Origin: Paludibacteraceae bacterium
GTDB lineage: Bacteria > Bacteroidota > Bacteroidia > Bacteroidales > Paludibacteraceae
Reading direction: 5' to 3'
Assembly: GCA_018056165.1 (NCBI GenBank)
Contig: JAGPGD010000014.1
Location: forward strand, 1 to 45,926
DNA: 45,926 nucleotides
Every line of letters begins with the position of its first letter. The first letter of the stretch is position 1. The notes beneath the pieces are model-generated. The model was given only the letters and a program-made list of their open reading frames with translations. It was not told the origin of the DNA and searched no databases. Below are positions 2,255 through 41,804 of this stretch, in pieces. The position numbers and the translations under genes were made by a program.

Positions 2255-2705
2255 GAATTGTGCAACCTACCAAGTTTTTCTCTATTTAAAAGGCTTCAAT
2301 TCAACATTGAAGTGCCATTGAATATGTAGATGGGGAAAATTTGGGTGATATAGCTTTCGGTAATCTACTATAGAAACATTCGTAAATGCAAATATTTTAA
2401 AAAAATAATCAGCCTATCATATTGATACTATTTGATTTATCGTTTCTATTAAACAAATATTAAAATAATTTTCATAATTTATGTTTTTTATTTACAAATG
2501 TTGTATATTTATGGCGGAAATAAGACGTTAGCAAAAATGTTTGAAGGCACGCAAAATCGCAGTTTCGCTGTTTTGCTTTTGCTATTTTCGCTAACGGCAT
2601 GGCAGTAGCCTAATTTACTTTATGTGTCTTCGGCACTATCCACCAGGCCTTTGGCAGTGACTCTTAGACGACAGTTGTAAACAGAAAGAAAAGAACGACA
2701 AAACA
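2255..2705. other. intergenic region with start of the cassette array
   Basis: About 270 bp of AT-rich sequence with no credible gene lies after arsM. It is followed by a hairpin whose arms are CGTTAGC (2526-2532) and GCTAACG (2590-2596), extended by A/T complementarity, and then an irregular dyad region ending at TTAGACGACAG near 2664. This may be the first, ORF-less unit of the attC-like array. The left boundary of the array is uncertain. Confidence 0.4.
2589..2675 (+). repeat. possible attC-like site 1 (upstream of DAC-like gene)
   Basis: It begins with GCTAACG, pairing with CGTTAGC at 2526, and may end at the TTAGACG near 2664, followed by the DAC-like gene at 2706. The inner dyad (GGCATGGCAGTAGCC against GGCCTTTGGCAGTGAC) is only partly complementary and the closing GTT is CTT here. 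This is the least certain member of the series. Confidence 0.3.
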
Positions 2706-4466
2706 ATGAGTAATGTAATTGAATATTTTATGTGGGGATACCAACAACACATTTGCATTTCCTTACAAGTATCTGCTGAAAGTTTGTTTAACGAAATTGA
2801 CAAAAAACTAAGACCTAAAATATTTCTTCTTGGAATTTTAACAGACAAACGAGACGACAGACATCCAATTTGTATTGAACCCGAGGATTATGGTTATTCA
2901 GTAAAGTCTTTTGCAGAAGTCAATTCTTTAGCTCAAGAACTTGAAAAGGTTAATGAAGAATCAAGGATTTTCCATTCACACCCAGTAGCACAAAAAAATC
3001 ACGAAAAAAGTATTTCAACCAATGCCCTAAGAGAAGCCATTGACAAAATTCTAAAAAAAGAAGATTTGTATGGCGATACTGAAAAATTTATTTCATATCC
3101 AACATACATTGAAGGCTTTCTTGTCTTTGTAGTTCTTGAGCTCGACAAAAAAACTCTGAACAGCTACTATTCTTTGACAAAAGAAAAATTCAACGACCGT
3201 TATAAAATTAGTCGTTCATTTATTGAAAGTGCCATTGAGACCTATTTAAAAGAAAGTGCAATTGCCCTTAAAGACCCCAACAAAGGAATTGGTGCTATTG
3301 AAAGACCTACGGACGAACTTTTAAGAGAATCAGGCAAACAATTTATGTATTCTATCTCTCAAGCAGGCGAAAATTTTGATGGACTTCACGGACTCTATGA
3401 TGCTTGCAATACAATCTCATCATTAAAATACGAAGGTGCAGATGGACTTGGAAAAATGATTATTGCAAAGAAAGACCACCCAAATATTCGTTTGACACTA
3501 CAACTCAAAGAACCGATTAAAGTTAGAGATTATAGAAAAGTCAGAAAATTTTTAGAATTATCTAATGACAACGCTGTAATCATTTCTGACTCTGCATTAA
3601 TATATGGTTTAGGAGAACAAACAGGAAAATACAATCCGAAAAATGAATCTCTTTTTGAAATTAATTTTATTAGCCATTTTAAGTGGGAAGTTTTGCACGA
3701 CAACAATCCTATGATGGTTGTTGAATATAGTCAACCTAATTTACCAAAAGACAGAATTGATAGGGTTAAATTTTACTCTGACTTTAAAAGAATTTTCAAA
3801 GACATTGACAAAAATCAGTTAGACAATCTTTGGGACATTACAACAGAAGCCACAAAACAAAAACACGGGACAATGTTAGTAATCTCTGACAATGCAAAAG
3901 CAGAAGCAGAAAGATTGGGTAAACAAAGTTTCTCTCTTAAACCGCTAAAATTGACTATTGGTATTGTTCAGCAAATCACTTCTATTGATGGTTCAGTTCT
4001 TATAGACAAAGACGGAATTTGCCACGCTATTGGAGTTATCCTTGACGGTTTAGCGACTGACAAAGGAGACTCTTCAAGAGGTGCAAGATATAATTCTGCC
4101 ATTCGTTACTACGAGCATTTCGGCACAAAACACCCGACAGTTTTGGTAATTATTTCGGAAGACGGAATGATAAACCTTATTCCCAATTTAAGACCACAAA
4201 TAAAGTACTCCGACATTCTTGACGCAATCAAAAAATTTGAAGAGTTGAGTAAAGGCGAAAAGGTTGCAAGAAAGTATTTTAATCAAGCAATGACTTACTT
4301 TCAAAATGTTGCTTTTTATTTGACGGCTGACGAATGTGATAAAATTAACTCACTTCGCAAACAAATTGAAGAAGCGGATAAAGACATTGATAGCGTGAGA
4401 ATTGTTTACAATGACATTAAACCAAATCCAGAAATGAATGACAGTTACTACATTGACGAGAAATAG
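2706..4466 (+). CDS. DisA_N/DAC-like nucleotidyltransferase-fold protein with N-terminal sensor-like region
   Basis: 586 residues, no signal peptide or membrane segment. Residues about 386-500 resemble a diadenylate cyclase (DisA_N) domain: KHGTMLVISDNAKAEAERL (386-404), then IDGSVLID (427-434) where cyclases have DGA, then SRGARYNSAIRY (457-468) where they have the RHR motif, then VIISEDGMINLIP. The first Asp and first Arg are kept, but Ala is Ser and HR is YN, so it may make another product or only sense nucleotides. Residues 1-360 resemble the poorly known sensor regions found before such domains; the HSHP at 90-93 lacks the rest of a JAMM motif. A coiled C-terminal tail (505-565) follows. 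It is the first clear cargo gene of the cassette-like array. Signalling or defence role is inferred. Confidence 0.6.
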   Translation: MSNVIEYFMWGYQQHICISLQVSAESLFNEIDKKLRPKIFLLGILTDKRDDRHPICIEPEDYGYSVKSFAEVNSLAQELEKVNEESRIFHSHPVAQKNHEKSISTNALREAIDKILKKEDLYGDTEKFISYPTYIEGFLVFVVLELDKKTLNSYYSLTKEKFNDRYKISRSFIESAIETYLKESAIALKDPNKGIGAIERPTDELLRESGKQFMYSISQAGENFDGLHGLYDACNTISSLKYEGADGLGKMIIAKKDHPNIRLTLQLKEPIKVRDYRKVRKFLELSNDNAVIISDSALIYGLGEQTGKYNPKNESLFEINFISHFKWEVLHDNNPMMVVEYSQPNLPKDRIDRVKFYSDFKRIFKDIDKNQLDNLWDITTEATKQKHGTMLVISDNAKAEAERLGKQSFSLKPLKLTIGIVQQITSIDGSVLIDKDGICHAIGVILDGLATDKGDSSRGARYNSAIRYYEHFGTKHPTVLVIISEDGMINLIPNLRPQIKYSDILDAIKKFEELSKGEKVARKYFNQAMTYFQNVAFYLTADECDKINSLRKQIEEADKDIDSVRIVYNDIKPNPEMNDSYYIDEK

Positions 4467-4469
4467 CTC

Positions 4470-4612
4470 AGCAGCTAACACGAGTTTTGCGTCAGGCGGA
4501 CTGACGTGTGACGATAACAATCGGGATGCTTCTATTCGACTTCAGTGTTAGTTTGACAGTTTTGTATTCCGAAAAACCCGCCCGAACGCAAAGTCCGGAA
4601 CCGTTATAGGGC
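4470..4612 (+). repeat. attC-like site 2
   Basis: It starts 4 bp after the DAC-like gene with GCAGCTAACACG (4471-4482) and ends with CCGTTATAGGGC (4601-4612). The inner arms TTTTGCGTCAGGCGGACT (4485-4502) and GAACGCAAAGTCCGGAAC (4584-4601) are largely complementary, so a single strand would fold into a long hairpin. Predicted crossover is G|TT at 4603. Confidence 0.55.
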
Positions 4613-4697
4613 ATTTTAGGGATAACCCTAAGTCCAAAACAAAAACAACGAATGACTGAAAATTAAATTAACAATCAACTTTTAAACAAAACAGACA

Positions 4698-4880
4698 ATG
4701 CAAAAAGTAATCACAATCACAACACACACAAACATTATTGACAAAGACAATAAGTTTACAGAGAAAGAATACCCGACACTTGACAGTTATTTACAAGCAG
4801 GGTACAAAGTTGTTCAAGTAATACCAGTTGCTGACAATAGTTCATATATGTATTCTCTGACTTTTGTGTTAGAAAAATAA
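4698..4880 (+). CDS. small cassette-encoded hypothetical protein (60 aa)
   Basis: A 60-residue soluble, mixed alpha/beta-looking protein with a clean start (MQKVITITTHTNII) 85 bp after the attC-like crossover. The final residues SYMYSLTFVLEK are compatible with a beta strand. No known domain, cysteine motif or signal peptide is seen. It is the only gene in a cassette of about 606 bp between crossovers at 4603 and 5209, which argues that it, rather than a longer gene, is the cargo. Its spacing and size match the short orphan proteins usual in cassettes. Function unknown; reading-frame confidence is moderate because it is short. Confidence 0.6.
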   Translation: MQKVITITTHTNIIDKDNKFTEKEYPTLDSYLQAGYKVVQVIPVADNSSYMYSLTFVLEK

Positions 4881-5081
4881 TTACAACTCGGTTACAATTT
4901 CTTTGACCGACTTAAAAAAAGGGATAAAGAAAAAGTAGTAAACTGTAATTTGCTTTTCGATGTTGTTTGTTCCGACAGACAACCTTGCTCTTGTTACTTT
5001 TTTAATCATAATATTTGTGACAGTTGACCCGACACTGACAGGCTTATTTTTAATTTAAACAATAACGACAGAAAGAAAAAC

Positions 5082-5220
5082 GCCCTATAACAGCACCTAT
5101 CCAAAAGTGGCGGTTCAGTGGTTAAATCAAGTTTTGTACTTCTATCAACTTTTGTGGCGGGCTGACAGTTTCTCGCTCCGAACCCCCCACTACTGCAAAC
5201 GTGGGAACGTTATGCACAAT
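5082..5220 (+). repeat. attC-like site 3
   Basis: It opens with GCCCTATAAC (5082-5091), the exact reverse complement of the GTTATAGGGC that starts its own cassette at 4603. It closes with ACGTTATGCAC (5207-5217). The interior contains partly complementary AAAAGTGGCGG and CCCCCCACT arms and a central imperfect hairpin. The 200 bp between the 60-residue gene and this site hold no other credible gene. Confidence 0.6.
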
Positions 5221-5264
5221 TTTAAAAAGTGACAGCGACCATTATAAACATTGAATTTAAAGAA

Positions 5265-5334
5265 TATGAAACCCACAGGTATTACATACACAAACACGAA
5301 TGAATATAATATTCAGACATGTGGGTTCCATCAG
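5265..5334. repeat. imperfect inverted repeat upstream of hydrolase cassette gene
   Basis: TATGAAACCCACAGGT (5265-5280) is nearly the reverse complement of ACATGTGGGTTCCATC (5318-5333), with 13 of 16 positions matching. It lies between the cassette start and the first possible start codon. It may be a leader hairpin or an old small insertion; no promoter or riboswitch family was recognised. Confidence 0.4.
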
Positions 5335-5360
5335 ACCTTTAAAAAATAAATTATATTCTG

Positions 5361-5546
5361 ATGAAAATTAAACTTGGCAAAGAGATTCTTGATACAATGG
5401 GTAAAGACCCTCGATTATTGGTGCCAAAATTATATCTATCAAGGGTTTGTACTTTTAATTTTCAAGTCCCTATGCCTAATATAGCATTGATTGGTATAAT
5501 CTTGATTGTAATTGTTTCCAAATATTTATTAAAATTACATGTATGA
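5361..5546 (+). CDS. possible 61-aa single-span membrane peptide
   Basis: An open frame of 61 residues with one hydrophobic segment (about 38-60, IALIGIILIVIVSKYLL). Its stop overlaps the start of the hydrolase gene (ATGA at 5543-5546), which would allow translational coupling. No homolog is recognised and composition is ordinary AT-rich, so it could also be a chance open frame in the leader. The overlap is the only positive evidence. Confidence 0.3.
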   Translation: MKIKLGKEILDTMGKDPRLLVPKLYLSRVCTFNFQVPMPNIALIGIILIVIVSKYLLKLHV

Positions 5547-6508
5547 AAAAGCTTTTGTTTATTATTGCAGTATCTATCCTATCAATTGATTTATTTGCAC
5601 AAGCTCAAAATAATCCTGTTTTTTCTGAATCCGAAATTGTTTTAAAAACTTCATCTGGAGACATCTATGGTACTTTGACGGTTTCTAATATTACAAAACC
5701 TTCACCGATAGTTTTGATTATTGCAGGTTCAGGTCCAACTGACAGGGATTGTAATTCACCTATGGGTATTCAGACAAATGCCTATAAAATGCTTGCAGTA
5801 GATTTGGCAAAAAATGGTATTTCATCTTTGCGATTTGATAAGCGAGGAGTAGGCAAAAGTAAACAAGCAATGACGACCGAAAGTGAACTTAGATTTGAGA
5901 CATATATAAATGACGTTGTTGCATGGATATCTTTATTAAAAACTGATAAACAGTTTTCATCAATTATTATATTAGGCCATAGTGAAGGCTCATTGATTGG
6001 AATGGTAGCTGCTGAACAAACTAATGTTGCAGGGTTTATTTCCATTTCGGGAGTTGGGAGATCAGCTGATAAAGTTTTGCAAGAGCAACTAAAAACTAAA
6101 TTGCCGCCGCAATTACTTGATGAATCAAATAAAATACTTGACAGCTTAAAAATTGGGAAAACAGTTTCAAATGTAAATCCTAATTTATTTGCATTATATC
6201 GTCCGAGCGTTCAGCCATACATGATTTCATGGATAAAATATGACCCAGCAAAAGAGATCAGTAAATTAAAAATGCCAGTATTAATAATACAAGGTTCAAC
6301 TGATTTGCAAGTTACAATTGACGATGCTAAATTGCTTTCGATATCAAAGCCTGATTCAAAACTTATTATAATTGATAATATGAATCACGTTTTAAAAGAA
6401 TCTGATTCTGATATTCAAAAAAATATGGCAACTTATCGAAATCTTGATTTACCCTTAAAGGCAGAATTGACAACTGATATAGTTAATTTTATAAAGGCCA
6501 TAAAATAA
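5543..6508 (+). CDS. secreted alpha/beta hydrolase (serine esterase-like)
   Basis: 321 residues with a Sec signal peptide (1-20, ending LFAQ). The alpha/beta-hydrolase landmarks are in order: oxyanion region IIAGSGPTDRD (59-69), RFDKRGVGKS (97-106), nucleophile elbow GHSEG with Ser147 (145-149), an acidic residue Asp254 in IIQGSTDLQV, and the catalytic His282 in NMNHVL. This resembles the exported dienelactone-hydrolase or acyl-peptide-hydrolase-like enzymes of Bacteroidota; the substrate cannot be told. It is the main gene of the cassette between crossovers 5209 and 6639, and its stop lies only 6 bp before the next attC-like site. Family call is firm, physiological role unknown. Confidence 0.85.
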   Translation: MKKLLFIIAVSILSIDLFAQAQNNPVFSESEIVLKTSSGDIYGTLTVSNITKPSPIVLIIAGSGPTDRDCNSPMGIQTNAYKMLAVDLAKNGISSLRFDKRGVGKSKQAMTTESELRFETYINDVVAWISLLKTDKQFSSIIILGHSEGSLIGMVAAEQTNVAGFISISGVGRSADKVLQEQLKTKLPPQLLDESNKILDSLKIGKTVSNVNPNLFALYRPSVQPYMISWIKYDPAKEISKLKMPVLIIQGSTDLQVTIDDAKLLSISKPDSKLIIIDNMNHVLKESDSDIQKNMATYRNLDLPLKAELTTDIVNFIKAIK

Positions 6509-6514
6509 AAAATA

Positions 6515-6650
6515 TGCATAACAACGGGTATAAAATATAGCGGTTTCGGTGGTAATTCAAGCGTAATAGCCGCATGAAGTTTCGTAACAGGTGATACGGT
6601 TGAAGTTCCGCAATCCCTTACGGCACATACACTCAAACATTGGGTGCAAG
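6515..6650 (+). repeat. attC-like site 4
   Basis: It opens with TGCATAACAACGG (6515-6527), complementary to the GTTATGCA that begins its cassette at 5209. It closes with ACATTGGGTGCAAGCTG (6637-6653), where G of the GTT core is A. Inner arms such as TAGCGGTTTCGGTGG and CGGTTGAAGTTCCGC form an imperfect dyad. Sequences of this kind, TGCATAACAACGGG at one end and TTGGGTGCAAGC at the other, recur between Bacteroidota genes. Confidence 0.6.
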
Positions 6651-6801
6651 CTGCCCAATAGCGCAGAGCAGACACAGACAAAACAAAATTTAAGGTTACC
6701 CGCTCGACAACACAAAAATTTTGACTTTTGTAATTTTGTGATATAACTGACTGTAAAAAAGTAACGATAAATGTAATCTACAAACGCTTAAAAATACAGA
6801 T

Positions 6802-7770
6802 ATGAATAGATTGTTCTTAATTATACTTTTGGTTTTGTCTGCAATATTAATTTGCACAAGTTGCGACAAAGAAGAAGCGAGAAAAGAAAATTTTACTGGC
6901 ATAGAAAACATTTCGTTTGAAAATTATCCGAAGGTGGATGGTTCTACTTCTGCAAATGTGCTGAATGTGATGGTTGCCTGTAAACTGTTGGGTGTTCCTT
7001 ATAGATGGGTTGAGCCAGGGATTGTTACTGAATGGACTTTACAACCTAAATATGAAGAACTCTCCGAACAGTATAAAAACTTTTTTTGGCAACAAGTGAA
7101 AAGTTCCGGAACACATGGTGCATTTATGAATTTGATTGACGGAGATGCTGATATTATCCTCACACACAGGACTATTTCGCAAGACGAAAAAGTCCATGCC
7201 AATGCAGCTGGAGTTATGCTGATTGAAACACCCATTGCATTAGACGCTTTTGTTTTTGTTGTTAACAAGAATAATCCTGTAAAATCGCTGACGGTTAATC
7301 AAGTTCAGAAAATATATACAGGCGAAATAACCAATTGGTCGCAGGTGGGTGGTAAAAACGCAAGTATAAAAGTATTTACGCGTCCCCGCAATTCGGGCAG
7401 CGAGGAGGTGCTGAGGGAGTTAGTAATGGACGGTTTAGAACCGGCTGATTTTCCGGAAAGCGCAATAGGCGGAATGTCACAGGTTTTTGGTGAAATTTTA
7501 CACAACGAGGATGCTATCTGCTATACTTTCAATAACTACAAAAATTTACAAGCGCGGGTACCTGACAGCGAAGTGCCAAAAATAGCTATCAACGGTATTT
7601 TTCCTAATGAAAAAACGGTTAAAAATGGAACATATCCCTTTATATCAAAAGTACACGTTGCAATTCGTTCAGATTTAGACCATAATACGATGGCTTACAA
7701 ACTATACGAATGGTTGCAATCGGAGGACGCAAAATCGACAATTACAGAATGTGGGTTTATTCCGAAATAA
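6802..7770 (+). CDS. PstS-like phosphate-binding lipoprotein
   Basis: 322 residues with a lipoprotein signal peptide: hydrophobic 3-18 and lipobox ICTSC with Cys21. The mature part has PstS-family features: YPKVDGSTSA (42-51) as the first phosphate-binding loop, SSGTHGAF (about 97-104), DADIILTHRTIS (about 115-126), and the KSLTVNQVQKIYTGEITNW segment followed by FTRPRNSGSEEVL. It probably binds phosphate or a related oxyanion at the cell surface. No pstABC transporter genes are nearby; the gene stands alone in the cassette between crossovers 6639 and 7959, so it may serve as a scavenging or sensing binder. A TAATTTTG box at 6731-6738 is a weak promoter candidate 63 bp upstream. Confidence 0.85.
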   Translation: MNRLFLIILLVLSAILICTSCDKEEARKENFTGIENISFENYPKVDGSTSANVLNVMVACKLLGVPYRWVEPGIVTEWTLQPKYEELSEQYKNFFWQQVKSSGTHGAFMNLIDGDADIILTHRTISQDEKVHANAAGVMLIETPIALDAFVFVVNKNNPVKSLTVNQVQKIYTGEITNWSQVGGKNASIKVFTRPRNSGSEEVLRELVMDGLEPADFPESAIGGMSQVFGEILHNEDAICYTFNNYKNLQARVPDSEVPKIAINGIFPNEKTVKNGTYPFISKVHVAIRSDLDHNTMAYKLYEWLQSEDAKSTITECGFIPK

Positions 7771-7830
7771 TATCAATCAGAACAATACAATGGTTTGACT
7801 CGGCCTGACAAACTTTTACCAACAGACTGC

Positions 7831-7965
7831 CAGCACCCAACAAGCAGTATAGTTAATTGCCAGTTCAGTGCGTATTCGAGTCGCGTAGCCCGTATCAAAA
7901 GTAATTGTAACTTGACAGGGAAGTGCTCCGAAATGCCAAACGTTTCATACACAGAACCGTTATTT
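7831..7965 (+). repeat. attC-like site 5 (array end)
   Basis: It opens with CAGCACCCAACAAG (7831-7844), whose GCACCCAA is the exact reverse complement of TTGGGTGC at the start of its cassette (6640). It closes with AACCGTTATTTC, giving a predicted crossover at 7959. Beyond that point the sequence is the tyrosine-integrase remnant, so this is the right end of the array. A 75-residue open frame crossing this site is judged spurious. Confidence 0.6.
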
Positions 7966-8358
7966 CTGCAAACGTTATCTTTTCTCGTTTCTCATATTTT
8001 CGGAGATGATGGAGACAACTAAACCAGTTTCCCCAATTGCCCCGATTTTCTTCGCCGAGACGTTTTTCGCACATCGACCGATAATGATCAAAAAATAGCG
8101 TATCTGTCGCATACTCTGATTTAAAACCATACTCCCCATTTCGGAGTTCAACAACCCGCTTCGATTTAATAGCCTCCGCGAGTTTTAATGTTTCCTGATT
8201 CGTTTTCTTATTCTCTCTGTTCTTTTTCCGGGATAAGATACAGTTTCAAGTATTCGTATAAGCGATCTCCATTTATGTAAATGACGAGATATAGGGAAGT
8301 GTTTCCTGCCGGAGTTTTTCTTTTCCGCAATCTTACTAGTTCTTTAGAATTTCCCATT
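7962..8358 (-). pseudogene. 5' remnant of a tyrosine integrase, frameshifted and truncated
   Basis: Reading the minus strand from ATG at 8358 gives MGNSKELVRLRKRKTPAGN, then SLYLVIYINGDRLYEYLKL, the Arm DNA-binding start of Bacteroidota phage-type integrases. That frame stops after LIPEKEQRE. A neighbouring frame resumes the family sequence: TLKLAEAIKSKRVVELRNG, then NRGNWGNWFSCLHHLRKYE and ITFAEI, the start of the SAM-like core-binding domain. Homology ends at the attC-like crossover near 7960; the catalytic domain is absent from the window. The start codon lies 8 bp beyond the outer copy of the mnmE 3' end, the usual place for the integrase of an mnmE-targeting island. Confidence 0.75.
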
Positions 8359-8887: not shown

Positions 8888-10402
8888 TTATTTGATATTC
8901 ATTATCTCAAGTAATTGTTTAACCTCATTTAATCGTTTTAAATAAGGTAAAGCTATTTCTTTCCCTGTGTATGCTTTTACTATATTCAAATGAGATTGAA
9001 CAAATAATGAACAATCAATTATTTTTGTACATTCATTCAGCTTTATAGGTTCGGTTGGTAGTGTGATATTTTCAAAGAAGTTTTCTAATTCTGAAACATC
9101 AGCACTATTAAAAAAAGGTTTTTGTTTGTGAGTAGCTTTAGTAATTTCAGTAACTACTTCAGGTTGCGGTTCGTAATCTTTAAAAGGGTTTTCTAATTCT
9201 GAAACATCATTATCATTGAAAAAATCATTTTGTTTTATTTCAGTAACCTTTGTAATTTCAGTAACTTTTTCAGGTTTAGCTATTTCAGGTTGTTTAATTA
9301 TTCCAGGTTGTTCTATTGCTTTAGCTTTATTAAATACTTTTCTGTATTCTCTCCAGTCCTGTTTTATTAAAAAGTCAGCAATATCATAACCTTTTATTTT
9401 ATCGGCTTCAGAAGCAATTTTCTCTAACAAATCAAACACTTTGAATTGTGTACCATTTAACCGTTGTTCAAATTCATTTGCTTTTTCCTTCCATTCTTTG
9501 AACGTATTACCGTCTTTTGACAAGTCAGGAAATACATATACAAACCGCCCTTTTAATGGTATTATTTTATCAAATGAAAAACTGCTTTTATTGTAAACAG
9601 CAAGCCAAAGTAAATCATTTTCATTTTCAGGAAAGCCAAAATACAACGTACCATAAACGGCTGTTTTAGGTGCTTCTACCAGTGCAATAGGATTGTGAGG
9701 ATATTTAGATAAAAGATGCTCACCAAACAAACAAGTAACTTTTTTTTCATTCTTTAGATACAATTGTAACCATTTTGGTACTTCCTTTTTATTTCGTATG
9801 CATTCCTTTTCAATGATAGAATGTAAAAAGTCTGTTTTTATAGTATGATTTTCTTTATCAAATTGCTTTACTTGTACGGCTCTAACATTACCGTTTTTAT
9901 CAATAAAAGGGAACGTAACCGCTCCAGCCATATAACCCTCTGTAATTGTTCCAAGCCCGTACATACTTATAACCTTTTCAATATCAGAAGCATCAAAAGG
10001 GTAGGGGATATTACAAAGTAAATTTTGAATAAATATATTTATATCATATCCTTTTAATGTCCCTTTGAAAGTATCAGGGTCAAAATAAGTTATTTGTGGT
10101 TCAGGTTCAGGTTCAGGTTCAGGTTCAGGTTCAGGTTTAAATTCAGGTTTGTTATAAGTAAAATTTTGATATTTATAATTGTCCAGCTTTTTTGTTTCTC
10201 TTTCATTAATCAATTTAGCATAACCATCAGAATAAGGGTTTAAATGATAACAACAATCAGCCTCACGGTCGCAACGTCCATATTTCTCTGGTAGATATTC
10301 ATTTGTATAGGTATCAATATACCTGACAAACCTTTTTTTATGGCAAGCTGGACAAATAAATTTTCTACTGCTTTTGTCTAATGTGTATCTATATTCTCCC
10401 AT
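8888..10402 (-). CDS. DUF6371-like primase/toprim-type replication protein
   Basis: 504 residues when started at MGEYRYTLDK, 5 bp after the helicase stop; an upstream start would overlap the helicase by about 160 bp and was rejected. A zinc-ribbon-like N-terminus has Cys17, Cys20 (CPAC), Cys44 and Cys50/51, like phage primases. A toprim-like core follows with VEAPKTA (a Glu in the first motif) and FPDLSKDG. A Glu-Pro tract (PEPEPEPEPEP) near residue 100 is encoded by a hexanucleotide tandem repeat. The C-terminal third has two diverged repeats of VTEITKxTxxKQxxFF followed by DVSELEN. It probably primes replication of the excised element together with the D5 helicase. Assignment to DUF6371 is from memory of the family's N-terminal pattern. 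Confidence 0.75.
   Translation of the reverse strand: MGEYRYTLDKSSRKFICPACHKKRFVRYIDTYTNEYLPEKYGRCDREADCCYHLNPYSDGYAKLINERETKKLDNYKYQNFTYNKPEFKPEPEPEPEPEPEPQITYFDPDTFKGTLKGYDINIFIQNLLCNIPYPFDASDIEKVISMYGLGTITEGYMAGAVTFPFIDKNGNVRAVQVKQFDKENHTIKTDFLHSIIEKECIRNKKEVPKWLQLYLKNEKKVTCLFGEHLLSKYPHNPIALVEAPKTAVYGTLYFGFPENENDLLWLAVYNKSSFSFDKIIPLKGRFVYVFPDLSKDGNTFKEWKEKANEFEQRLNGTQFKVFDLLEKIASEADKIKGYDIADFLIKQDWREYRKVFNKAKAIEQPGIIKQPEIAKPEKVTEITKVTEIKQNDFFNDNDVSELENPFKDYEPQPEVVTEITKATHKQKPFFNSADVSELENFFENITLPTEPIKLNECTKIIDCSLFVQSHLNIVKAYTGKEIALPYLKRLNEVKQLLEIMNIK
10094..10140 (-). repeat. hexanucleotide tandem repeat encoding Glu-Pro
   Basis: About seven units of GGTTCA on the plus strand give an alternating Glu-Pro tract in the primase-like protein. 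Unit changes keep the frame, so copy-number variation would lengthen or shorten the linker without breaking the gene. Confidence 0.85.
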
Positions 10403-10406
10403 TGGT

Positions 10407-11999
10407 CTAAAATGGATTAAACGAACTTTCCACATATACATACGTTGCCCCTGCTGTACCTCTTTCAACAAAATAGCCAAGTTCCCGCAATTGTTTGCTG
10501 AAATTATTTTTTTGAAATGGTTTATAACCGTTCTCAGTAGAATAATTTCTATATTCAGTATAAAATTCACCTAACAATTTACGTTCGGTAGTGCTTTTTG
10601 TATAACCATTCTCATTTAAAAACATTTGAACACTACTACTTTCAATTTTATACTGTTCAACTGCTTTACGTACTGCAGTACATTCCGTAAAACGCCCCTG
10701 TTTTAATAGTCTCCGAAGCCCTTCTAAAGCCCAATTAAAAACTCCAGGTAATTCATTTTCAATAATTTTTGTATGTAAGTTTGGGTCTTGTTCGTTTTCT
10801 GGTATTGTTACATTAAACGGAATAATTATAAACCTTCTGAAATAAGCGTTTGTATGCTCTACATCTTTAGGTAATTGATTACAATTAAAAATTAATTTCG
10901 CATATTGATTGGTATTAAAGGGTCTTCCATACGGGGAACGTACTGAAATATCTTCCCCTGAAGCCATTTGCTTAAATATACTTGTTTCTAAATTTATACT
11001 AATTTCAGAAGAATAATTTACTATTTTGTTAACTATTTCAGCCCCGTAATATCCACTTTTATCGGTTAATTGCTGAATTGGGTAACTGCTTACATTTTCT
11101 TTTCCAAGCATTGCCTTAATAATTTCATAAAATACACTTTTCCCGTTTGCTCCAGAACCGTATAATACTAAAACTTTTTCAGCCTTCAGTCTCTTACTCC
11201 CATTCCTTATGAAAAGGTATCCAATAAATTCAGCCAATACCTTTTGGCTTTCATTGTCTGGCAATACTCTATTTAAAAACGCTTCAAACATTGGTGCTTT
11301 TGCATCGGGGTCATACTCAAAAGGTAATTGATAGGTTAAAAAGTCTGCACGGTCAAACGGTCTTAATTTCTCTTCTTTTAAGTTTATTTCAAACGTTCCA
11401 TTTTTTAAATTTATTAATACAATATCATTATTGTATTCAGGACGTGGAAGGAATTGAGTGGCATAAAATTGCTTCAACAGTTTATCTCTAAAGTCATATA
11501 GTTGTGCATCATATTTTGGGACTTTCATTTTTTCAGCAGCTTCACCTAAAAAAATTTTAAATTCTTCCTCTCCGATTACTTTCCAATATGCACCATTGTA
11601 CAAGTAAATAAAACCATTATTTACACACAAAGCCCATTTATTCCTTTTTGCAATTTTTCCAATTTGATTAATAGATTCAACTAAATAATGTTTATTGAAT
11701 AATTTCAGGTTTTCGGTATTGGTTACATTATTCCCGTTTTCATTGTAAACAATTTCCCTGAAATTGACTGGCTCTATTTGTTCCAATAATTGGTGTAATA
11801 TATCAGAATGATTTGCTGTTTCTGAAGGTTCAAGAAGCTTTTTAACCCCGCCTCTTATTATTTCAGGAGTTATTTTATTATCAGGGGGTAAAATGTTTGA
11901 AAAATCAGGGTTAATTTGGATATTTCTCTGAAAATTACTATCTTTGTGTTGTCCTTCACCCTCAAAGTTATTAGGGCTGTTTAATTGATTATTTTCCAT
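10407..11999 (-). CDS. D5/P4-type replicative helicase (primase-associated SF3 ATPase)
   Basis: 530 residues. Residues about 120-250 match the D5 N-terminal region (the NGxYW element NGAYWKVIG, and LINLKNGTFEI). An SF3-type ATPase follows with Walker A GSGANGKSV (281-289), a VNYSSEIS Walker B region, FNCNQLP, and the arginine-finger segment FRRFIIIPF. The C-terminus has a winged-helix-like part (about 460-525). Such proteins unwind origins in P4-like satellites and many integrative elements. The start overlaps the end of the excisionase-like gene by 11 bp, and the primase gene starts 5 bp after its stop, so the three form one minus-strand operon. Confidence 0.88.
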   Translation of the reverse strand: MENNQLNSPNNFEGEGQHKDSNFQRNIQINPDFSNILPPDNKITPEIIRGGVKKLLEPSETANHSDILHQLLEQIEPVNFREIVYNENGNNVTNTENLKLFNKHYLVESINQIGKIAKRNKWALCVNNGFIYLYNGAYWKVIGEEEFKIFLGEAAEKMKVPKYDAQLYDFRDKLLKQFYATQFLPRPEYNNDIVLINLKNGTFEINLKEEKLRPFDRADFLTYQLPFEYDPDAKAPMFEAFLNRVLPDNESQKVLAEFIGYLFIRNGSKRLKAEKVLVLYGSGANGKSVFYEIIKAMLGKENVSSYPIQQLTDKSGYYGAEIVNKIVNYSSEISINLETSIFKQMASGEDISVRSPYGRPFNTNQYAKLIFNCNQLPKDVEHTNAYFRRFIIIPFNVTIPENEQDPNLHTKIIENELPGVFNWALEGLRRLLKQGRFTECTAVRKAVEQYKIESSSVQMFLNENGYTKSTTERKLLGEFYTEYRNYSTENGYKPFQKNNFSKQLRELGYFVERGTAGATYVYVESSFNPF

Positions 12000-12336
12000 T
12001 ATTCAGCCCTTTCTTTTTCTTTAAATAGGTTTCAGCTTCAGCATCAATTTCAGCATTAGTTTTTTTGCGTCCACCTTTTAAATACTCATACAGTTCAATA
12101 TTAGAAAAATAAAGTCGTTTTCCCCGCTTCATATACGGCAATTCACCCCGTGAAACTTTTTCATAAATAGTTTGTTTGGTAATGTTTAACAATTTGGCTG
12201 CTTCCTCAACTGTTAAAAATCTTTCTGTTTGTTCTGTTTGGGTTGATTTTTCAGCAACTAATTCTTCTATTTTGCTTACTTTTTTAATAAGCGTTGTTAC
12301 TGCTTGCGGTAATTGTTCAAATGTGATTGTTTCCAT
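11989..12336 (-). CDS. excisionase-like HTH_17 DNA-binding protein
   Basis: 115 residues. The middle holds a MerR/excisionase-type helix-turn-helix: RFLTVEEAAKLLNITKQTIY, then EKVSRGELPYMKRGKRLYF, at about 39-79, followed by a basic tail. This family includes excisionases and small regulators of Bacteroidota mobile elements. It is the first gene of the operon with the helicase and primase, so it may both direct excision and control replication-gene expression. Upstream is a 500-bp gap with its likely promoter. Confidence 0.85.
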   Translation of the reverse strand: METITFEQLPQAVTTLIKKVSKIEELVAEKSTQTEQTERFLTVEEAAKLLNITKQTIYEKVSRGELPYMKRGKRLYFSNIELYEYLKGGRKKTNAEIDAEAETYLKKKKGLNNGK

Positions 12337-12836
12337 TGTTTTAAAATTTTAAATTGTTAATAAGATTGATTTGATTAACCTTAACTTTTAATTAAAATTA
12401 ATACTACTGCAAATATATTAATAATTTTTAAATAAAACAATAGGTATATTTACATTTTTTATGTCTTTTCACGCCTTCCTATTCTTTTAGTAGGTGTTTA
12501 TATATTGCTAAATATCTAAATATCAATTGATAAAAGATAAATTTATGTATTTTATTTTTTTTAACTTATCCTAATAAGAACAATAAACTTTAACTTTATT
12601 TAACAATTCAGGCCATTTTTTATTGGAATAATTTAGAATATAAACAAGGTGAGAAATAAACGGCTGGATAAGTATTGGAATAAATTATCTGAATAATAAT
12701 ATATTGGAATGATAAAAAATAAAACGCTTCAAATCATTTTCAAAGCGTTTTAAACGTATATTTTTACAAGCCGATAAATTTATCAACTTCAATATAAAAT
12801 ATGGTTAATCAAAAAGCAAATGGTAAAAGAATAAAA
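12337..12836. other. intergenic region with operon promoter and terminator
   Basis: No gene is seen in these 500 bp. It contains the presumed leader of the minus-strand replication operon, three copies of TATTGGAAT (12621, 12673, 12702) that could be regulator sites, and the integrase terminator at 12721-12751. The sequence is very AT-rich, as expected of a replication or regulatory region, but no origin can be claimed. Confidence 0.45.
12715..12751 (-). terminator. rho-independent terminator of the integrase gene
   Basis: AAAACGCTT (12721-12729) and AAGCGTTTT (12743-12751) form a perfect 9-bp stem. Read on the minus strand it is followed by a T-rich run, 86 bp after the integrase stop. Confidence 0.6.
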
Positions 12837-13982
12837 TTAATCAATATCTAATTTGATTTTATTGGCTGCTTCACGTTTTGCTTCATCCACAACTTTAGCA
12901 TAAATTTGAGTGGTTTTTATATCTCTATGTCCTAACATTTTAGAAACAGTATAAATATCAGTTCCTTCTGTTAATTGCAAAGTGGCAAATGTATGTCTGA
13001 AGCAATGGAATGTGATTTTTTTGGTTATTCCAGCCTCTTTTATCCATTTGGATAATTGTTCGTTGGTGCAAGTTGAATAAATCAACCCAGCAAAAACTTT
13101 TTCATTTTCCCCCCGCCGTTCACCTAATAAATTAAACGCTTGTTCTGAAATAGGTAAGGTCTCCACGCCTTGCGTTTTCTTTTGTCTAAAATTCAGGAAA
13201 TACCCTTGTCCTTTTATATATTCAATTTCACCCCAAACCATTTTTTGAATATCAGAAAATCTTAAACCAGTAAGGGCTGAAAATAAAGCTGCACGCTTCA
13301 ATATATCATTACTGCAAGGTGTTTTTACAAGTTTATTCAGCTCCTCAATAGTTAAGTGCTCCCGCCGTGTCTCCTTGCTTTTAATTGGCTGTATTTTGGC
13401 ATTTAGGTCGGTTTGCAGTAAGCCTTCAGCATATGCTTGTTTTAAAGCAGCTTTTATTTTTAAAAAGTACGAAGCTGCCGAATTGATGGAAAGGTTTGTT
13501 TTGTCGCTCCGATGGCTTTTGGCTGTAAGCAAATAATCTTTGAAATCATTAAAAAATTTTTCGTTGAGTTCTGAAAACTTTATACTTCCATTTGTGAACG
13601 TTTCAAGGTAATAAAGGGCTGAAGTCCAATTACCTGAATTACTCCCTTTGCGTTTCTTTGTTAATTCCCTGAAGTATTCAACAAAACATTTTTCTCCTTG
13701 CTCCTTAATATGTAGTTGTTTCTTTTCAAACTCCGTATATATTTCGGGCTTGTTTAAAATGTTTTCCCGTTTCTGTTTTATACTTTCAGCAACCTTAATT
13801 GTTTCAGTATTGTGGTTCTTTTCATTTTGTGTTTTTGGTTTATCAAAGATATATAACCCTAAAAACTCCCTTCGTGTCGGTTTACCTGTAGCAGGGTTGT
13901 TTATTGCTGGATAAAAATCTAAATAAAGACTTTCCCTGCCATTACTGATTTTCTTTTTTCGTAATGTTACTTTTGTTCCCAT
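12837..13982 (-). CDS. tyrosine site-specific integrase of the element
   Basis: 381 residues with the three-part layout of Bacteroidota phage-type integrases: Arm DNA-binding region (about 1-50, TLRKKKISNGRESLYLDFYP), SAM-like core-binding domain (about 95-190), and catalytic domain with Arg241 (TGLRFSDI), a basic strand around Lys268, His326-x-x-Arg329 (HCFRHTFA), His352 (GHRDIKTT) and the nucleophile Tyr361. All key residues are present, so it should be active. Its likely substrate is the 18-bp mnmE 3'-end site duplicated at 8366 and 14872. It is transcribed apart from the replication operon, with a terminator after it. Confidence 0.93.
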   Translation of the reverse strand: MGTKVTLRKKKISNGRESLYLDFYPAINNPATGKPTRREFLGLYIFDKPKTQNEKNHNTETIKVAESIKQKRENILNKPEIYTEFEKKQLHIKEQGEKCFVEYFRELTKKRKGSNSGNWTSALYYLETFTNGSIKFSELNEKFFNDFKDYLLTAKSHRSDKTNLSINSAASYFLKIKAALKQAYAEGLLQTDLNAKIQPIKSKETRREHLTIEELNKLVKTPCSNDILKRAALFSALTGLRFSDIQKMVWGEIEYIKGQGYFLNFRQKKTQGVETLPISEQAFNLLGERRGENEKVFAGLIYSTCTNEQLSKWIKEAGITKKITFHCFRHTFATLQLTEGTDIYTVSKMLGHRDIKTTQIYAKVVDEAKREAANKIKLDID

Positions 13983-41608: not shown

Positions 41609-41692
41609 TGCGCAGAATGAGACTCGAACTCACACGCCGAAACCGGCACTACCCCCTCAAAGTAGCGCGTCTACCTATTCCGCCATCTGCGC
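41609..41692 (-). tRNA. tRNA-Leu (anticodon GAG)
   Basis: An 84-nt gene on the minus strand. The acceptor stem GCGCAGA pairs with TCTGCGC, followed by discriminator A at 41609. The D-arm has TGGCGGAATAGGTAGACGC, the anticodon loop reads TTGAGGG (anticodon GAG), a long variable arm typical of class II tRNAs is present, and the T-loop is GTTCGAGTC. CCA is not encoded. Tandem with the next tRNA-Leu. Confidence 0.95.
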
Positions 41693-41720
41693 AAAATTTT
41701 AAAGATAATTCTCAATTTTG

Positions 41721-41804
41721 TGCCCAAAACAGGACTCGAACCTGCACAGCCTTGCAGCTACTAGTCCCTGAAACTAGCGCGTCTACCAATTCCGCCATTT
41801 GGGC
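41721..41804 (-). tRNA. tRNA-Leu (anticodon CAG)
   Basis: 84 nt on the minus strand. The acceptor stem GCCCAAA pairs with TTTGGGC (one G-T region), discriminator A at 41721. The anticodon stem-loop CTAGT-TTCAGGG-ACTAG gives anticodon CAG. Long variable arm, T-loop GTTCGAGTC. CCA not encoded. 28 bp upstream of the other tRNA-Leu in the transcription direction. Confidence 0.95.

Follow-up and report, generated by a model that had tools for sequence, protein, structure and literature searches.

The stretch analysed here, called the window throughout, comprises positions 1 to 45,926 (45,926 nucleotides) of contig JAGPGD010000014.1 from Paludibacteraceae bacterium (assembly GCA_018056165.1), whose genome measures 2.02 Mb in 103 contigs and is 94.7% complete. 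Its left part carries an arsenic-type (ars) locus with an ArsR-type regulator, a member of the low-molecular-weight phosphatase family and a methyltransferase, as assigned by Pfam. From 2527 to 7976 there follows a run of genes which all lie on one strand and are separated by dyad-symmetric spacers (Table 1). In our study this run is very probably a gene cassette array, with four attC-like sites behind an attI-like leader and without a dedicated integrase, and its cassettes are likely moved by a Bacteroidota tyrosine recombinase other than the integron integrase IntI.

Table 1. Parts of the cassette array in the window, with the evidence for each
Feature	Position	Strand	Evidence
attI-like leader of the genus	2370-2529	+	similarity ends at the G of GTT
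Hairpin element at the junction of leader and first cassette; not attC-like	2527-2605		R1 gives no match
Cassette 1 gene, predicted diadenylate cyclase (DACNG-DACNH-DAC) with sensor domains	2706-4466	+	Pfam
attC-like site 1, from the trailing end of cassette 1 across the core to the leading end of cassette 2	4464-4618	+	R1 71.6 bits, E 2.3e-16
Cassette 2, open reading frame of 60 aa at 4698-4880	4603-5091	+	ends GTTATAGGGC/GCCCTATAAC pair
attC-like site 2, phylum-wide type; core GTGGCGGTTCAGTGGTTAAATC at 5107-5128	5076-5224	+	R1 78.1 bits, E 5.2e-18
Cassette 3, open reading frame 5361-5546 and alpha/beta hydrolase 5543-6508	5209-6522	+	ends GTTATGCA/TGCATAAC; Pfam
attC-like site 3	6507-6654	+	R1 48.2 bits, E 1.7e-10
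Cassette 4, PBP-like protein 6802-7770	6639-7841	+	ends (A)TTGGGTGCAA / CAGCACCCAAC; Pfam
attC-like site 4, end of the array	7826-7976	+	R1 34.0 bits, E 6.9e-7

Integrons are the textbook platform for gene capture; their classical core sites follow the consensus RYYYAAC ... GTTRRRY, and the classical integrase gene is divergent from its array. In the window, the ends of the single units are complementary to each other. In the second cassette GTTATAGGGC and GCCCTATAAC pair over 10 nt including GTT, followed by one mismatch (A versus C at position 11) and four further pairs (TTTT/AAAA). In the third, GTTATGCA and TGCATAAC pair over 8 nt with GTT included, and in the fourth TTGGGTGC and GCACCCAA pair over 8 nt, this unit beginning with ATT and not with GTT. 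Each of these end matches has a single occurrence in the 2.85 kb upstream, where 0.0, 0.048 and 0.016 were expected from mononucleotide shuffles. The leads GTTATAG and GTTATGC depart from GTTRRRY. An earlier, sequence-only reading had proposed five dyad spacers between same-strand genes and an exact pairing of the 8-10 bases after GTT in three successive units. The dyads and genes are real and four of the spacers are attC-like sites, but the one at 2527 turned out to be the leader junction together with a hairpin element; the pairing also stands, though its lengths count GTT itself and one of the units lacks that triplet.

The hairpin element (2527-2605) is gene-less and has an 80% identical copy on another contig of the same genome (C45, L253:6471-6554), where it overlaps the end of an R1 site (6337-6486); its position in the window is a GTT junction. 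Stretches of about 80% similarity to it were also noticed at L017:1037-1139.

The site type extends well beyond this genome. By BLAST, the spacer 5060-5240 matches Emticicia and Chryseobacterium plasmids at 81-83%, and the Emticicia array has unit-by-unit pairings of its own surrounding unrelated genes; a stretch related to site 1 also lies on an Emticicia plasmid. Stretches about 71% similar to site 1 were seen on Riemerella, Empedobacter and Myroides plasmids, two of them at a gene for lincosamide nucleotidyltransferase, and resistance genes may therefore travel in cassettes of this kind. The 22-base pattern of site 2 recurs in at least 117 stretches of other genomes, and the matches listed come from Cytophagales, Flavobacteriales, Chitinophagales, Sphingobacteriaceae, Bacteroidales, Saprospiraceae, Ignavibacteria and Balneola. 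In most copies among the matches listed, the core is near-constant and the bases before AAC and after GTT are variable; some copies are without most of the core.

The end pairing follows the same rule in these relatives. Among 70 distinct sites, each with at least 1.5 kb upstream, 46 showed an end pairing of at least 9 nt against 1.42 expected by swapping ends between loci, and 30 showed at least 10 nt against 0.49. An alignment of 65 units was obtained from 91 sites (the other 26 yielded no unit), with pairing at positions 1-9 as the selection criterion. The leading end has the form GTTRNNNNNNANNNTA, and the trailing end is complementary to it save for a fixed mismatch at position 11, which was unused in the selection and never pairs: the leading end has A in 65/65 units and the trailing complement has G in 53, giving an A/C mismatch on the top strand and a T/G wobble on the bottom strand. 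Positions 12-15, which had aided the ranking of candidates, pair in 68-95% of the 65 units. Position 5 is T or C in 35/65 leads, so that half of them break GTTRRRY. The core is 118 nt long in 60/114 sites. The unit finders used after this alignment demand A at position 11.

Two variations of this scheme were noticed. Several sites of the genus are just 72 nt long and yet match the whole model (L255:76-147, L255:2149-2220 and G541:C92:39206-39277), forming a short subtype. The successive units L175:11904-12423 and 12544-13063 have identical leading ends and equal length and look like a tandem duplicate.

The predicted folding of these sites has a strand bias like that of attC. Circular sites were modelled with DNA energy parameters by linking each trailing end through its core to the cassette's own leading end, as they would lie in the excised circle. 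Of the two strands, the bottom one was the more stable in 98/100 of these sites, by a mean of 4.8 kcal/mol in folding energy only, and the own leading end outperformed a swapped one in 100/100. The predicted consensus fold contains bulges and an unpaired spacer. Folding had been proposed earlier as a check on the attC character of the spacers, and the folded strands do show an attC-like strand bias; for attC itself, bottom-strand selectivity is described in the parts of PMC8946536 that were available.

A covariance model of the sites (A4/R1, here R1) was built on 60 sites, none of them from the genome of the window. At E<=1 it finds exactly four sites in the 45.9-kb window, all on the plus strand, and at E<=3e-5 it finds 23 in the whole genome, spread over 12 contigs. 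The two congeners G541 and G542 have 28 and 10 sites, respectively, and a taxonomic family-mate of another genus has 0. Taken together, the copies of the site across the phylum, the end pairing rule, the pattern at position 11, the strand bias and the counts in many genomes bear out the suggestion of the sequence-only reading that an under-described attC class of Bacteroidota is present here.

Movement of cassettes can be followed by comparing related loci. The flank 301-2529 of the window shares 92% identity with G541 at the orthologous ars locus. This similarity breaks off at 2529, where the window continues with GTTAGCAAAAA and G541 with GTTGTGCGTCA, which belongs to another first cassette with an R1 site behind it. 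Thirteen further copies of the leader reach GTT (alignments of 47-192 bp), namely two more in the same genome, six in G541 and five in G542, and the 11 distinct leads that follow these 13 copies all carry A at position 11. Cassettes shared between genomes are also bounded at the unit ends, as given by the base pairs by which the similarity extends beyond the unit start and beyond AAC: L019/L107 at 94.5% identity (+1/+41), L163/L086 at 84% (-1/+3), L166/L127 at 87% (+8/+1) and L198/L229 at 91% (+4/+139, taking in the entire site). Moreover, a cassette on contig C26 of the window's own genome is 86% identical to one in an integrase-bearing array of genome G207 (-40/+11). Gain and loss of cassettes as discrete units is supported by the replaced first cassette and by this sharing, as far as comparison of sequences can speak to it. 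Two observations had been named in advance as speaking against cassettes, namely the same gene order kept in other genomes and units never inserted separately; neither holds, since the congener keeps the leader with another first cassette and units are found inserted separately in other genomes.

The same observations bear on a simpler explanation, in which the genes form an old and immobile operon with terminator-like or REP-like (repetitive extragenic palindromic) spacers. The arrangement of the genes on a single strand and the AT-rich dyads would suit such an operon. The pairing of the ends is, however, specific to each unit, the orthologous locus holds a different first cassette and the shared cassettes stop at the unit ends, and this explanation is hardly credible.

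Cassette arrays of this kind also occur on plasmids. A plasmid of Chryseobacterium sp. SNU WT5 carries a recombinase with seven sites, all on the strand of the recombinase, and the Persicobacter plasmid pPP2 has 23 sites, all on one strand, in the 20 kb examined. In a Chryseobacterium plasmid array (L010), a hairpin-rich repeat of about 170 bp (GTTGGGAAAAATCGCCC...) was noticed by eye at several leading ends, at about 263, 2643, 5713 and 12799, and it may be a small mobile element which targets these sites. As to the cargo, 100 cassette open reading frames match 75 Pfam families at E<=1e-5, none of them in more than two reading frames, and restriction, defence and antibiotic-modifying families are included. 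The diadenylate cyclase gene of cassette 1 was found in 1/149 genomes of the order, namely in its own genome.

A recombinase family is associated with these arrays. A tyrosine-recombinase profile run on loci L009-L127 found eight proteins, six of them in one family. Three full-length members score 210-217 bits with TIGR02249, under its cut-off of 265, with the match split into two pieces. Between the two matched blocks, the relative P0079 has 24 residues where VchIntIA (2A3V) has 66, and hence the additional domain of IntI is missing. The AlphaFold2 model (mean predicted local distance difference test score, pLDDT, 86; predicted TM-score, pTM, 0.56) finds XerA and IntI as best PDB matches, with TM-scores near 0.5. 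The family is present in 115/395 Bacteroidota genomes at E<=1e-60. In a tree of 69 rows the 20 IntI rows form one clade (100/100) with no other row within it, the XerC/D rows of the genus form a separate branch, and five members with arrays (L188, L206, L191, L193 and L204) group beside the IntI clade at an open fork (87/95). On these comparisons the family is related to IntI but, where tested, without the additional domain and outside the IntI clade.

In many members the N-terminus is extended by about 55 residues resembling HARP or DUF5710, below the Pfam cut-off, and members with and without this segment are each scattered in the tree (5 and 4 changes). HARP was rejected as a firm domain name, PF07443 being matched by 1/4 proteins (E 0.038) and DUF5710 by 18/56 at E<=1 (best 5e-4). 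Among the plasmid relatives listed from outside Bacteroidota, the best were recombinases of about 52% identity on Acinetobacter, Klebsiella and Aeromonas plasmids, matched only past the N-terminal part.

The layout of recombinase and array is fixed in position and orientation. A strict unit finder, run on 20 loci of 19 kb, placed 79 units on the recombinase strand versus one on the opposite strand, and each of seven decoy triplets gave 0-5 per strand; a finder of GTTRRRY pairs is strand-symmetric and says nothing of orientation. After deduplication 92/110 loci were kept, 80 of them with at least 1400 bp downstream. Here 37/51 members with the segment have a unit start within 700 bp past the stop codon, with 163 same-strand units versus 3 opposite ones. 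The unit starts most often 36-126 bp from the stop codon, in a count that takes some loci twice, and the sequence in between is dyad-rich and attI-like, often ending like TATAAACAAG|TT.

Among the members without the segment, only 4/29 have a downstream unit, one of which (L198) is borderline with part of the segment. That these members lack arrays was considered and ruled out, as most have divergent arrays. In 20 such loci, chosen for their upstream sequence and including three (G535, G186 and G155) with a known type-A site, paired units lie upstream in 14 (27 divergent and 0 co-directional; decoys 2 and 4) and R1 sites in 16, all 43 of them divergent. The first unit is 84-132 bp from the first Met of the reading frame in 8/14 loci with divergent arrays. 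The members L191, L193 and L204 are without the segment and yet have co-directional arrays.

Sites and recombinases also go together by genome. R1 sites were found in 40/40 family-positive genomes (median 15) versus 24/40 family-negative ones (median 1; p 2e-9). The highest count in any of the 80 sampled genomes was 37 sites. Stricter filters applied in this comparison, at least 12 of the positives had supplied seeds of R1, and the negatives were the first family-negative genomes of the listing. A simpler site pattern, type A, was found in 36/395 genomes, of which 21/36 are family-positive versus 94/359 of the rest (p 1.2e-4).

The classical integrase could itself be the missing partner, in which case the window would be an ordinary cluster of attC sites lacking integron-integrase (CALIN), and a classical IntI encoded elsewhere would move its classical sites. 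The logic of end pairing and of bottom-strand bias is indeed the same, and a true IntI over the cut-off occurs in 105/395 genomes of the phylum. However, just one of these genomes (G185) belongs to the class of the window, and near 20 true IntI loci there is one R1 match (E<0.001) in 344 kb, as opposed to 93 matches in 380 kb from 20 family loci; many of the latter had seeded R1. An A facing G at position 11 occurs in 1/38 pairs with GTTRRRY leads at IntI loci versus 6/28 at family loci, counted on both strands, so that at most half can score. With half of the leads departing from the classical consensus and the array recombinases outside the IntI clade, this explanation is improbable.

It may also be asked whether a dedicated enzyme is needed at all, as XerC/XerD or the neighbouring mobile element's integrase (12837-13982) could move the units. 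Tyrosine recombinases of those kinds are present in the window's own genome. We consider this very improbable, because dozens of genomes have a dedicated family beside the sites, with its position and orientation fixed.

Movement by a dedicated non-IntI recombinase thus being preferred, the cassettes would arrive as folded bottom-strand hairpins and be recombined by this Bacteroidota enzyme. Since the trailing end is succeeded by a core, mostly about 118 nt long, it would form one long imperfect hairpin with that core and the cassette's own leading end in the excised circle, and the site would be complete only there. The recombinase probably binds the folded bottom strand and, like IntI, would exchange one strand at G^TT with the double-stranded attI-like leader. 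The enzyme of the genus would be the subtype without the N-terminal segment, as in G542, where one leader copy starts about 30 bp upstream of the family recombinase and is divergent from it. In the genome of the window this enzyme may have been lost or not assembled, or the array may use one in trans.

Several observations weigh against this interpretation. The genome of the window has no close family member, a deeper profile finding only Xer-type and mobile-element recombinases (best XerD, 5e-43); G541, with its 28 sites, has no family member at E<=1e-40 beyond Xer-type proteins; and the one member in G542 lies on a contig without a detected unit or R1 site. The sites present in 24/40 family-negative genomes indicate that sites and enzyme are linked only in part. 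At the locus level, a unit within 700 bp is absent from 14/51 members with the segment, and 11 of these have none at all; 4/20 members without the segment have no site, and a Chryseobacterium oryzae plasmid has the recombinase and no R1 site in the 25 kb examined. In the window itself the pairings are short (8 nt in two units), a paired leading end was looked for and not found for the first unit (trailing AAC 4477-4479), and the last leading end (7959) is without A at position 11. The diadenylate cyclase, 60-aa, hydrolase and PBP-like proteins have no relative in the loci compared (tblastn E<=1e-8), and the best plasmid relative of the diadenylate cyclase (Dyadobacter, 43%) has no R1 site within 4 kb on each side. 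Finally, recombination itself is deduced from comparison and not from observation.

The sequence-only reading had called the locus CALIN-like and had placed its integrase elsewhere. The first point is upheld: with R1 there are four sites in the window and no integrase in the assembly, neither a close family member nor an IntI over the cut-off, alongside the 23 sites of the genome. The second is plausible, as relatives carry the recombinase beside the same sites and G542 carries it beside the same leader, though no site was detected on that contig of G542. Judged from these comparisons, the window holds an integrase-less array of a distinct integron-like system.

This system has much in common with classical integrons and CALIN. 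The cassette ends are self-complementary around GTT/AAC, the site is a long imperfect hairpin with a more stable bottom strand, arrays run in one orientation from a leader beside the recombinase, integrase-less arrays are common, and the subtype without the segment also has the divergent integrase layout. It differs in that the recombinase is without the IntI additional domain and outside the IntI clade, the R arm is about 15 nt with the fixed A/C mismatch at position 11, the leads are not confined to GTTRRRY, and one subtype has the extra N-terminal segment and a co-directional array. XerA, XerC and XerD are, with IntI, the nearest solved sequences and folds to the family, whereas the XerC/D proteins of the genus fall on their own branch of the tree; we know of no cassette arrays for XerA, XerC or XerD recombinases.

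Several family members are named in database records after the 'integron-like' subgroup (PMC8138268) or NCBIfam NF040815. The latter ('site-specific tyrosine recombinase/integron integrase') is a broad XerA-type model which is missed by some members. In the passages available of PMC8138268, a classification of recombinases, the IntI insertion is held to be essential though not fully conserved in the integron-like subgroup, so family members may already belong there; the same passages describe no cassette system without IntI. IntegronFinder 2.0 reports for Bacteroidetes earlier cassette-less integrases (In0) only, with one new complete integron in Salinibacter ruber, besides integrons of Chlorobi and Ignavibacteriae (PMC9024848), and Bacteroidota are among the phyla listed with integrons in PMC9668308 and PMC8618304. 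In the text seen of a paper with taxon-specific attC models, the words Bacteroidetes and Bacteroidota are absent (PMC8352920), and a 2008 survey discarded matches that lacked the IntI additional domain or patch (PMC2426708). A search by titles and the starts of abstracts, with subscription papers and preprints outside it, found no literature on such a system, and the core letters of the site were not found in the literature searched.

This is likely a second and largely overlooked integron system, whose recombinase family is not among the known integron integrases and captures genes singly. With up to 37 sites in a sampled genome and a presence on plasmids as well, such a system would alter the picture of integrons in Bacteroidetes and would help to explain the travel of accessory genes such as the restriction, defence and antibiotic-modifying families in the phylum. 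The origin of integrons would also become testable, by asking whether the additional domain was needed for folded single strands or the cassettes came first. It can be speculated, tentatively and with more doubt than confidence, that this second system of Bacteroidota, with integrases, attI and attC of its own, preceded the IntI integron or was its ancestor. Life as cassettes would then predate the additional domain, and the array recombinases L191, L193 and L204, which seem to have neither this domain nor the N-terminal segment, would be living intermediates.

Some other features of the window and of the loci were noted. None of the four window proteins was matched by a PADLOC model, and the diadenylate cyclase had no match in viral contigs. 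No Rfam family for the site was found in the window, and in 16 loci only group II introns and a tRNA were found; the introns (Rfam group-II-D1D4) lie within loci L010 and L075, and an association of group II introns with classical attC sites is known from the part of PMC7923331 that was available. Right of the array (8888-13982) there are a DUF6371/zinc-ribbon protein and the tyrosine integrase already mentioned, which probably belongs to an integrative element. The window also has two tRNA genes, at 41609-41804.

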